64,000 nt of DNA from Acidobacteriota bacterium. GTDB taxonomy: Bacteria > Acidobacteriota > Terriglobia > Bryobacterales > UBA6623. Location of the stretch: NCBI GenBank assembly GCA_016125275.1, contig WGMB01000002.1, positions 441,231-505,230 of the forward strand, read 5' to 3'. Made by a program: the position numbers and the translations under genes. The notes beneath the pieces are model-generated. The model saw only the letters and a list, made by a program, of their open reading frames with translations. It was not told where the DNA came from and made no database searches. Below, piece after piece: positions 12,100 through 25,337 of this stretch. Numbering within the stretch: the stretch's first letter is position 1; each line of letters begins with the position of its first letter.

Positions 12100-13353
12100 A
12101 TGCCACCCCTCGACCCAACCGCTGCCGCGCCCTCCCCCCGGCGCGATCTCCGCCTCGAGCTCGGGCTGCTGCTGGCCGCCCTGGCGTGCGGCTGCTCCGC
12201 GTCGAGCCAAACCGGCTCCGCTCCCCCGGGCGACCCGCCGCCGGCCGCGGCCGAGCGCGCCGAGATCGTCGCCGTGGTGGCGCCGGACCGTCAGGCCCTG
12301 GCCCGCACCCTGGTGCTGACCGGCGAGCTCAAGGCCTACCAGTCCGTCGAAGTCCACGCCCGTGTGGCCGGCTACATTCGCCGCATGTACGTCGACGTCG
12401 GCGACTCCGTCAAGGCCGGCGCGCCGCTGGCCGAGATCGAGGTCCCCGAGCTGGCCAACGAGCTCACCGGCGCCGAGGCCACCGGCCAGCAGCTCGAAGC
12501 CGAGATCGGTCGCATGGAGCGCGAGCTCGATCGCGCCAAGTCCGAGGCCAAGCTCGCCGAAGTGCTCGCCTCGCGCCTGGAGTCGGTCCAGCAGAAGGAG
12601 CCCGGCCTGATCGCCCGCCAGGAAAGCGACGAGGCGTCCCTGAAGTACGAAACCGCCCTTTCGCGGGTCCGCACGGCCGAAGCCGCCCTGGGCGTCGCCC
12701 GGCAGCGCGCCGCCGCCGCCCGCGCCCTCACCGCCCGCAGCGAAACCATGCTCGAGTTCCGCAAGATCGCCGCGCCGTTCTCCGGCGTCGTCACGCATCG
12801 CTTCGCCGATCCCGGCGCGATGGTCCGGGCGGCGACCTCGTCGGCCTCCCAGCCGATCGTTCGCCTGGCCCAGATCGACCGTCTGCGTCTGGTCGTGCCC
12901 ATCCCCGAGGAAAACGCCGCCGCCGTGCAGGTCGGAACGCCCGTGGAGGTCTCCTTCGCCGCCGTCTCCAAGACCGTTCCCGGCCGCGTCTCCCGCCGCA
13001 GCAACGAGCTGCGCCGCTCCACCTCCACCATGGACGTCGAGATCGATATCCCCAACCCCGACCGCTCCCTATTGCCCGGCATGTACGCCGACGTGACCTT
13101 CTCGTTCGACAACCGCGCCTCCGCCCTCACGGTGCCCGTGCAGGCGGTCACCCTGCGCGGCGACAAGTCGAGCGTCTTCGTGGTCGACTCCGGCGGTCAG
13201 GTCGCCGAACGCGACGTCCACATCGGACTCGCCACCGAAACCCACATCGAGGTCACCGCGGGCCTCGAGGACGGCGACTCGGTGATCGTCGGAGACCGCT
13301 CCCGTCTGGAAATCGGCCAGAAGGTCCAAACCAAGGTCGTCACGGTAGGCTGA
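12100..13353 (+). CDS. RND efflux periplasmic adaptor subunit
   Basis: A 417-residue membrane-fusion protein that links an RND pump to an outer-membrane channel. After a lipoprotein-type signal (LGLLLAALACGC, Cys near residue 30-32) come a barrel strand, a biotinyl-lipoyl half (AGYIRRMYVDVGDSVKAG), a long coiled hairpin rich in Glu/Arg, the second lipoyl half (APFSGVVTHRFADPGAMV), and a C-terminal beta-barrel with LTVPVQAV. The ATG at 12100 is preferred since it places the signal at the N-terminus; an in-frame ATG at 12043 would add 19 residues from unusually A/T-rich DNA. The stop TGA is followed directly by the pump's ATG. Confidence 0.93.
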   Translation: MPPLDPTAAAPSPRRDLRLELGLLLAALACGCSASSQTGSAPPGDPPPAAAERAEIVAVVAPDRQALARTLVLTGELKAYQSVEVHARVAGYIRRMYVDVGDSVKAGAPLAEIEVPELANELTGAEATGQQLEAEIGRMERELDRAKSEAKLAEVLASRLESVQQKEPGLIARQESDEASLKYETALSRVRTAEAALGVARQRAAAARALTARSETMLEFRKIAAPFSGVVTHRFADPGAMVRAATSSASQPIVRLAQIDRLRLVVPIPEENAAAVQVGTPVEVSFAAVSKTVPGRVSRRSNELRRSTSTMDVEIDIPNPDRSLLPGMYADVTFSFDNRASALTVPVQAVTLRGDKSSVFVVDSGGQVAERDVHIGLATETHIEVTAGLEDGDSVIVGDRSRLEIGQKVQTKVVTVG

Positions 13354-23119: not shown

Positions 23120-23189
23120 CGAAGAAACCTCCGCGCCTGAGCCTACCACTCGCCCCACGGATCACCAAACGCCCAATGTCTGAAATGGC

Positions 23190-23236
23190 GCCCGGGGCGG
23201 GACTCGAACCCGCACTCCCTTGCGGGAAGGGGATTT
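23190..23236. repeat. Partial tRNA-Leu copy, distal attachment site
   Basis: These 47 bases are identical to 25255-25301, the 3' part of tRNA-Leu on the minus strand (acceptor 3' strand, T arm, variable arm, and 3' side of the anticodon stem). The CCA complement is also kept just outside (23186-23188). The match ends in the anticodon loop, after which the sequences differ. The same orientation and the position beyond the tRNA 3' end fit an att site left by site-specific integration. Confidence 0.85.
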
Positions 23237-23429
23237 CAGGTCGCTACAAACCTTGGGGTTTGGCGGAGCGGGACAGGATGTTTGGCACGCCGAAACCGCA
23301 GGAGCTTCGCCAAGCACAGATACGGACAACATGGGGCGCCTCCTCCTCGGGAAGTCGGTCCATCCTGCGAGCCATCGGAGGGCAGACGGAAGTTGATCTA
23401 GAATAGAGCCGCCCTGGCTGGAGAGCGCT

Positions 23430-24944
23430 ATGGAACGTTCGTCGCTATCGACCCACCGACACTCGGAACTGGTGATTGCTCTCGTCTATCCCCTGGGAAC
23501 AGATCGGGAATTGGTCATCAGGGCCCTGAGAAACCACTTGGCCAAGTTCGACTATGCGACTCGCGTCGTGCGAGTTAGCGAGCAATTCGAGCGCCTGAAC
23601 GAGCTGCAAAAAGGGCTCAAAGACTCCCCAGAATATAACCGTATTGCCACGCGCATGGAGGCGGGCAACAAGGCTCGCGAGCTTGCCAAGCGCGCTGACT
23701 TTGCCACGCTCGCAGCAATCTCTGCGGTGTCGAAAACTCGGTCAAGCGGAGGTGATCCGGAACCTTTTCTCCGTACCGTCCTCTTGATCGACTCCCTCAA
23801 ACGTCCAGAGGAAGTGGCGATGCTTAGGAGGATCTATGGAGCAGGATTTTTCCTTCTTGGCGTGTTTGCATCCGAGGCAACTCGACGTCGTTACTTGACT
23901 GACGACAAGAACATACCGGCAGTCGACGCAGCGACGTTGATGGACCGCGACTTGGATGAGATCGACGCCTACGGGCAACGAACCACAAGCACATTCCACT
24001 TAGCAGATGTATTCGTCTCCCTTGACAATCTCTGCGCAGAGTCGGACTACAAGAGCGAGATTTGGCGATTCCTGGACCTAGTGTTCAACCACCCTTATCA
24101 CACACCGACCAGGGATGAAAACGCGATGTTCCTGGCATACGCAGCATCGTTTCGCTCAGGAGATCTGTCTCGGCAGGTAGGCGCAGCCGTTACGTCCGCA
24201 TCTGGTGATGTCATCGCCGTTGGCTGCAACGATGTTCCCAGGTACGGTGGAGGTCTCTACTGGCCGGGCCAAGACGACCAGCGAGACTGGCGCCGGGGCC
24301 ACGACTCGAATCACATGCGGAGGGAGCAAATCATCTCGGAAGTCCTCAGTGCTCTGGAGGTTCCCAACGACCAGCGCGACGATTTCCGTACCAGGCTTGC
24401 GGAGGCCAGTCCGCTGAAGGACATCACGGAGTACGGCCGAGCTGTCCACGCCGAAATGGAAGCGCTTCTTGCTGCTGGGCGGACAGGATGCTCGCCGCTC
24501 GGCGGTACGCTGTACACCACAACCTTCCCGTGCCACAACTGCGCCCGGCACATCGTTGCGGCTGGTGTACGTAGAGTGGTCTACGTAGAACCGTACCCGA
24601 AAAGCAAGGCTGGCGAGCTGCACGCTGACTCTATCTCGTTGACAGACCAGGGAGAAAGCCATCGAGAAGACCGGCTCTCCTTTGAACCCTTCGTGGGCGT
24701 CGGCCCCCGCCGCTACGTAGATCTCTTCTCGATCGGGTTGGGAGGCGGGCGACACAAACGACGCAAATCCGGGCCTGACATTCTACAATGGAGCCCAAGC
24801 GGCGAGAGCGAGGTCCGCATCCCGATGTTGCCGACCTCGTATCTAGACCGTGAGCGGTTCGCCGCAGACGAGATCGCAGAGACCCTTGGCCTCCTTGGAG
24901 AACCATCAAGTGCCCCAATTGACGAAGAATCTGAGCACTCGTGA
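23430..24944 (+). CDS. Anti-phage dCTP/dCMP deaminase (AvcD-like)
   Basis: A 504-residue two-domain protein. Residues about 13-190 are an NTPase-like domain beginning LVIALVYPLGTDRELV, where the Walker A Lys is not evident, and including LLIDSLKRPEEVAMLR. Residues 225-400 form a zinc-dependent deoxycytidylate deaminase: DLSRQVGAAV, the ligand/catalytic pair H340-A-E342, and PC368HNC371. This domain order matches the AvcD/DCD enzymes that deplete deoxycytidine nucleotides during phage infection. A GGAG ribosome site precedes the ATG; a TAGAAT at 23399-23404 is a possible -10. In Vibrio the enzyme is held off by a small RNA encoded just upstream (AvcI); the 193-base leader here has no recognisable copy. 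It sits in a tRNA-Leu islet. Confidence 0.9.
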   Translation: MERSSLSTHRHSELVIALVYPLGTDRELVIRALRNHLAKFDYATRVVRVSEQFERLNELQKGLKDSPEYNRIATRMEAGNKARELAKRADFATLAAISAVSKTRSSGGDPEPFLRTVLLIDSLKRPEEVAMLRRIYGAGFFLLGVFASEATRRRYLTDDKNIPAVDAATLMDRDLDEIDAYGQRTTSTFHLADVFVSLDNLCAESDYKSEIWRFLDLVFNHPYHTPTRDENAMFLAYAASFRSGDLSRQVGAAVTSASGDVIAVGCNDVPRYGGGLYWPGQDDQRDWRRGHDSNHMRREQIISEVLSALEVPNDQRDDFRTRLAEASPLKDITEYGRAVHAEMEALLAAGRTGCSPLGGTLYTTTFPCHNCARHIVAAGVRRVVYVEPYPKSKAGELHADSISLTDQGESHREDRLSFEPFVGVGPRRYVDLFSIGLGGGRHKRRKSGPDILQWSPSGESEVRIPMLPTSYLDRERFAADEIAETLGLLGEPSSAPIDEESEHS

Positions 24945-25092
24945 CAACCGGGAGTACTGGAAGTTCGTGGAGGACACCGCTCGACTAGTCCGGACTTGGC
25001 CTGCTTGGAAGCGCGGACAGGCGCAAATGCCCCGGACGGTCGCAGAGCTACCTGCCGAGCGGGGCGAGAGAAAAGACTCCCCTACGAAATAG
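24910..25092 (+). CDS. Small conserved-looking protein overlapping deaminase gene
   Basis: A 60-residue protein beginning at GTG 24910, seated 10-15 bases after GGAGA, and overlapping the last 35 bases of the deaminase gene in another frame. Its core, DNREYWKFVEDTARLVRTWP followed by AWKRGQ, is an amphipathic helix pair ending in a WP-W motif; I recall the same pattern in small accessory proteins but cannot name a family. A longer frame from 24850 exists but lacks a ribosome site. The overlap suggests coupled translation with the deaminase and thus an accessory or modulatory role in the defence unit; that role is inference. Confidence 0.6.
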   Translation: MPQLTKNLSTRDNREYWKFVEDTARLVRTWPAWKRGQAQMPRTVAELPAERGERKDSPTK

Positions 25093-25250
25093 GCCGCTCT
25101 ATTCGGCAGTTCGAGGCATCGGACCTCGTGGGTCGAGAAGCCCTCAATCCAGCTCTACGGGAAGGGGTCCCGCCGCCTCGGACAGAAATCGAGCCCTGAG
25201 GCCCTTCAAGCAGCCCGGCAGAACCAGCGACAAGCCGCTGCTTCCAAACT

Positions 25251-25337
25251 TGGTGCCCGGGGCGGGACTCGAACCCGCACTCCCTTGCGGGAAGGGGATT
25301 TTAAGTCCCCTGCGCCTACCAATTTCGCCACCCGGGC
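25251..25337 (-). tRNA. tRNA-Leu (anticodon TAA), CCA encoded
   Basis: Read on the minus strand the sequence folds as a class II tRNA: acceptor GCCCGGG pairing with CCCGGGC, D-arm containing TTGGTAGGC, anticodon stem GGGGA/TCCCC around loop CTTAAAA with anticodon TAA, a long variable arm (TTCCCGCAAGGGAGT), and T-loop GTTCGAGTC. The genomic CCA occupies 25251-25253. The long variable arm and anticodon identify leucine. Its 3' half is duplicated at 23190-23236, marking it as the integration target. Confidence 0.97.
25255..25301. repeat. tRNA-Leu 3' half, proximal attachment site
   Basis: This is the part of the intact tRNA-Leu that is repeated exactly at 23190-23236. The two copies are in direct orientation and bracket the islet. 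Because the full tRNA is kept on this side, this is the tRNA-restoring junction. Confidence 0.85.

Follow-up and report, generated by a model that had tools for sequence, protein, structure and literature searches.

Several kinds of integrated elements and one defence family have already been described that come close to the locus studied here. The Islander collection holds 2083 anticodon-centred tDNA islands, and its islands with a 3' fragment number 3760 against 159 with a 5' fragment, so that islands at the anticodon are a known kind, as are, in smaller numbers, those with a 5' fragment (PMC4383910). CIMEs (cis-mobilizable elements) have lost their integration and transfer genes and have kept attL and attR (PMC5704250), and in the Dehalococcoides ssrA islands, for which 28 direct repeats have been aligned, sixteen islands keep an integration module (PMC3146451). 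On the side of the cargo, infection activates the AvcD deaminase, and the drop in dCTP and dCMP that follows starves phage DNA replication (PMC10511110, PMC12409362).

The locus that we present lies in a window of 64,000 nucleotides (the whole stretch of DNA that was analysed). In this window, an AvcD-type deaminase gene is located between an intact tRNA-Leu(UAA) gene and a displaced copy of the 3' half of this same gene (Table 1). We think that this islet probably arose by an insertion of the tyrosine-integrase type at the anticodon loop, and that its integrase has since been lost, most likely by decay.

The repeat that bounds the islet is well defined. Positions 23186-23242 and 25251-25307 are identical at 54 of 57 positions, with a spacing of 2065, and the core named in the original prediction (23190-23236 and 25255-25301) is indeed exact at all of its 47 positions, a repeat length at which a chance match is excluded. 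This direct repeat runs from the 3' CCA of the tRNA (TGG on the plus strand) to the anticodon loop, and the two copies diverge inside the 7-nt loop itself (TTTCAGG versus TTTTAAG). The second copy had been taken for a part of an intact tRNA-Leu(TAA), and both ARAGORN and Rfam (tRNA, 58.7 bits) agree on such a gene at 25251-25337 on the minus strand; this gene is uninterrupted, which rules out a group I intron in tRNA-Leu(UAA). Between the CCA and the loop, the displaced copy differs from the intact one at a single position out of 51, with a G where tRNA-Leu has its discriminator A, and this is consistent with a fragment released from selection. ARAGORN does not recognise the displaced half alone as a tRNA, but once this half (to 23236) is joined to 25302 it recognises an intact tRNA-Leu(taa). 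The worry that the match might be a general dispersed repeat can be set aside, since a 38-mer of the core, searched with up to three mismatches, occurs only at these two sites in the 7.55-Mb genome. The exact 47-mer had no match in the genome contig collection, and attP had none in viral contigs.

Table 1. Features of the islet and of the tRNA gene that borders it (window positions).
Feature	Positions	Strand	Basis or remark
attR, displaced tRNA-Leu 3' half	23186..23242	-	CCA to anticodon loop; crossover ~23234-23240
Left arm, non-coding	23241..23429		expected place of an AvcI-like antitoxin RNA, none recognised
Anti-phage dCTP deaminase, AvcD-type (predicted), 504 aa	23430..24944	+	NF041025, PADLOC, Pfam
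Small 'WPxW' gene, 60 aa from probable GTG at 24910	ORF 24850..25092	+	homologues after other deaminases
Right arm, non-coding	25093..25250		adjoins intact tRNA; integrase position in autonomous relatives
attL, islet-derived 3' half of intact tRNA-Leu(UAA)	25251..25301	-	ARAGORN and repeat alignment
Host tRNA-Leu(UAA) 5' half	25302..25337	-	completes the gene with 25251-25301; rebuilds the gene with 23186-23236 (ARAGORN)

From copy to copy the unit measures 2,065 bp, and the impression of a 2-kb stretch of lower GC between the copies was correct (0.596 versus 0.677 in the flanks). Its cargo had been described as a deaminase and a small overlapping gene only; both ORFs are confirmed, one for the deaminase and one, small and conserved elsewhere, that overlaps the 3' end of the deaminase gene. 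The non-coding arms are short (~190 bp on the left and ~160 bp on the right), and used as DNA probes they found no homologue in the same genome or in 256 other genomes of the order. Two arm matches, 38-46 bp long, fall in a TonB-receptor gene and in a phage tail-like gene; both are at chance level and were rejected. The islet holds no remnant genes of a larger ICE or IME. It had also been said to lack an integrase, and this stands: none of the ten PF00589 matches of the genome lies inside the islet, no integrase is present at this tRNA-Leu(UAA), and no integrase fragment or stub was found in the islet by tblastn or hmmsearch --max with the integrases of this genome and those that neighbour tRNA-Leu(UAA) in others. 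No congener with an empty site turned up; around the tRNA, no useful flank synteny was found among members of the order, and the right-flank protein shares only 57% identity with its best relative in the genome contig collection.

Elsewhere in the genome, other integrase genes (L203, L204, L205, L209 and L210) adjoin tRNA-Ser(TGA), tRNA-Leu(CAA) (twice), tRNA-Ala(GGC) and tRNA-Gly(CCC), and the genome thus seems to contain several tRNA-anchored elements. A second and different tRNA-Leu(UAA) is present on a short contig of the assembly (G000:C19; L208:855-939), next to a weak tyrosine-integrase match; this gene was perhaps brought in by an element, or the contig may be a contaminant.

The same attachment site was surveyed across the order in 113 tRNA-Leu(UAA) loci (our own and 112 from other genomes), most of them with some 10 kb of flank on either side. 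One objection raised along with the original prediction was that relatives might carry the partial copy in any case; on the contrary, about 100 of these 113 loci have the tRNA without a second, partial copy. In nine loci, our own included, the tRNA is accompanied by a partial copy of itself that breaks at positions 31-41, i.e. in the anticodon region. Three further matches were not counted as islets, those of L108 and L170 being T-arm matches of 26-35 nt and that of L093 being 82% identical over 62 nt. In five of the nine the copy is a 3' half, found at 2.0 kb from the tRNA in our locus, 4.4 kb in L099, 1.5 kb in L104, 1.0 kb in L159 and 6.1 kb in L180; in the other four it is a 5' half (3.7 kb in L082, 3.1 kb in L098, 8.4 kb in L156 and 1.5 kb in L176). 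The 5'-half type thus makes up four of the nine tRNA-Leu(UAA) islets here, though it is the rare type in Islander.

What distinguishes these loci from one another is the state of the integrase. A complete tyrosine integrase sits beside the intact tRNA in L180 (41 bp downstream) and in L156 (22 bp upstream); complete integrases also adjoin the tRNA in L123, L086 and L136, and that of L178 is cut by the end of the contig. In L082 and L098 all that remains of an integrase next to the tRNA is a C-terminal stub of about 60 amino acids, related in tblastn to the integrase of L136 (E 6e-8) and to that of L156 (E 1e-9), respectively. No integrase trace was detected in our islet, L099, L104, L159 or L176. 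Complete, stub-only and integrase-free loci therefore form a graded integrase series at one attachment site, and of the nine islets of the anticodon type seen within 10 kb, the seven that lack a complete integrase outnumber the intact ones. The claim of site-specific integration at a tRNA gene is well supported by this recurrence of islets at the same loop (two of them with a tyrosine integrase), together with the attL/attR geometry and the rebuilt tRNA-Leu.

Some other features of these loci can be mentioned. The integrases of L156, L136 and L178, located just upstream of the tRNA, form a distinct group (~60% mutually identical), and the motif 'tttcaaYgt' precedes the regenerated tRNA in L098, L156 and L176. 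The insert of L176 carries a VapBC-like gene pair, as judged by inspection. In L099, most of the 5' half of an intact tRNA-Leu(UAA) is repeated 5 nt after the gene (L099:7799-7921); then come a 4.4-kb insert (with a LysR-like regulator and an MFS-like transporter, again by inspection) and a displaced 3' half at 12255-12313. The arrangement resembles a tRNA copy that was split at the anticodon and lies beside a complete replacement copy.

The label of 'defence' given to the cargo is borne out by profile matches, since the deaminase scores 450.5 bits (residues 13-434) against NF041025, whose curated cut-off is 400 bits, and matches the PADLOC dCTPase model (E 2.9e-162) and Pfam PF00383 (dCMP_cyt_deam_1). 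The catalytic and zinc motifs, H340-A-E342 (HAE) and P367-C-H-N-C371 (PCxxC), are intact and common to 12 aligned homologues; among solved structures, dCMP deaminases come nearest, and they match the deaminase-domain part only. An anti-phage activity can be predicted from these features. The dCTP deaminase family of Tal et al. 2022 reportedly acts by an infection-triggered deaminase that depletes dCTP and dCMP and starves phage replication. We could not recognise an AvcI-like RNA in the islet (the segment 23237-23429 folds no better than its shuffles, with a z of 0.87, and has no Rfam match).

Homologues of the deaminase are present in 27 of the 257 genomes of the order (our own included) and in 11 further genomes among 396 sampled from the phylum, and the nearest ones, from another family, are only ~50-52% identical; such a patchy distribution, combined with this low identity, fits a horizontal acquisition. 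The gene is also carried by Escherichia and Klebsiella plasmids of ~4.6 kb and by 5-kb faecal contigs labelled 'Bacteriophage sp.' (L310, L313 and L311), and thus does travel on vehicles of very small size. No integrase was found near the gene in any of 20 wider loci around deaminase homologues, and a tRNA occurs in two of them only, each time more than 2 kb away. The tRNA islet therefore appears peculiar to our genome, rather than a rule for this deaminase.

The small gene is the most novel by-product of the analysis. Searches with a profile built on this ORF recover, immediately after deaminase genes, homologues that share a [W/L/M/Y]PxW motif; if weaker matches are counted, about 24 of the 42 deaminase loci that could be tested, across phyla, have such a gene in this position (among them L035, L038, L040, L044, L050, L309, L311, L314, L317, L321 and L322). 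In 4.06 Mb of fetched sequence, all matches with E<5e-4 lie next to a deaminase, and a single match below 1e-3 lies elsewhere. A Vibrio plasmid carries the gene after its deaminase, where it is missing from the gene table; a search of the small Escherichia plasmid L310 did not reveal it. The protein belongs to no Pfam or NCBIfam family, and its HetR_C and PHROG matches are weak and not significant. However, the small gene is not an exclusive partner of the deaminase, an idea that we had to reject when a whole-genome search of the order returned three strong homologues with no deaminase nearby (L353, L356 and L364). By sequence inspection, the neighbour of one of these deaminase-free homologues is a gene of the DUF262 type, and that of another is restriction-helicase-like. 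The small gene would thus belong to a wider small family, perhaps one that is associated with defence. In any case, its conservation provides a testable lead on the control of the deaminase in lineages that have no known AvcI RNA.

How this islet came to be where it is can be explained in several ways. One could suppose that no site-specific recombinase was involved, the repeat being produced by a single homologous crossover of a circular DNA that carried a tRNA-Leu 3' half, or by a duplication in the course of an ordinary rearrangement. A homology of 47-57 nt could in principle allow such a rare recombination, but random crossovers would ignore the CCA and anticodon-loop boundaries, and these recur in eight other independent islets, some of them of the 5'-half type, two islets having moreover an integrase in the canonical position; we consider this origin very improbable. 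It is hardly credible either that the copy at 23186 came from an unrelated tRNA, as a fragment or pseudogene, and that the deaminase arrived separately, for this copy is nearly identical to the neighbouring tRNA, lies on the same strand 2 kb away, bounds the low-GC stretch exactly, and has no counterpart in about 100 of the 113 loci surveyed.

The choice between the loss of an integrase and its original absence is more delicate. The islet could have lacked an integrase from the start, as a mini-element that is not autonomous: it would bring its own attP (half tRNA plus core) and depend for excision and insertion on the integrase of a helper element specific for tRNA-Leu(UAA), acting in trans. 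The single difference between the copies suggests a recent insertion, hence little time for a clean deletion that spared only the cargo, and the islet retains no detectable stub, so that the case for decay in our locus has to be made from its relatives. Moreover, all five of the nine same-site islets without a detectable integrase have inserts of 1.0-4.4 kb, and integrases of the helper type for this site do exist in the order (L180, L123 and L086). Against this, members of a mobile family should share arm sites with their helper, and the arms of our islet have no homologue in 257 genomes; the integrases encoded by the genome itself are not close to those of the 3' type in L180, L086 and L123, and none is found at the tRNA concerned; finally, two other islets without a complete integrase have plainly decayed. 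No positive sign of mobilisation in trans was found, and all in all we consider it unlikely. Unlikely too, in our opinion, is a broader proposal, in which a pool of integrase-less mini-islets of ~1-4 kb, moved in trans by a few helpers that have an integrase, would shuttle single small cargoes at the tRNA-Leu(UAA) anticodon loop of this order, and in which many deaminase loci would truly have two components, the second being the WPxW gene (a regulator or antitoxin), whose overlap with the 3' end of the deaminase gene would have caused it to be overlooked.

We therefore favour decay, which the stubs of L082 and L098 demonstrate at this very site and which can be taken as the default for our islet. 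According to this scenario, a site-specific reaction of the tyrosine-integrase type would have joined a circular element, which carried a copy of the tRNA-Leu(UAA) 3' half, to the tRNA gene of the chromosome, with the crossover in the anticodon loop; the 3' half of the element would then have completed the tRNA gene, the host 3' half being displaced to the far end (23186-23242). The parent element would subsequently have decayed by deletion around a useful cargo, its integrase disappearing in the process, and the remnant would be a CIME-like islet, by now a resident defence gene. Upon infection, dCTP and dCMP would be converted by the deaminase to dU nucleotides, and phage DNA synthesis would be starved. 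We infer in this scenario the nature of the recombinase, the loss, rather than the original absence, of the integrase, and the defence activity. If this is correct, the islet shows how one anti-phage gene can persist as a minimal resident defence module. Surveys that count an island only when it has an integrase would overlook islets of this sort.

How does the locus compare with the systems described previously? As in AvcID systems, its deaminase passes the curated cut-off of NF041025 with intact catalytic motifs (PMC10511110, PMC12409362); it differs from them in having no AvcI-like RNA that we could recognise and in having a WPxW gene that overlaps its 3' end, as in about half of the homologues examined. 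Like the islands of Islander (PMC4383910), the islet has a regenerated tDNA at one end, a displaced 3' fragment in direct orientation at the other and a crossover in the anticodon loop, but it is only 2 kb long, contains one defence gene and a small gene, and has no integrase. With CIMEs it shares two att sites that enclose cargo only, with no integrase or transfer genes, whereas no ICE or IME lies in tandem beside it. As for the ssrA islands of Dehalococcoides (PMC3146451), there too a single RNA-gene site gathers many islands bounded by direct repeats, some with and some without an integrase, although the recombinase is a serine recombinase and the site is the T-loop of tmRNA, instead of the anticodon loop of tRNA-Leu and the tyrosine integrases found in our relatives. 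The islet is a small, integrase-less, tRNA-anchored island of a known kind, and it is closest to the CIMEs and to the Dehalococcoides ssrA islands.
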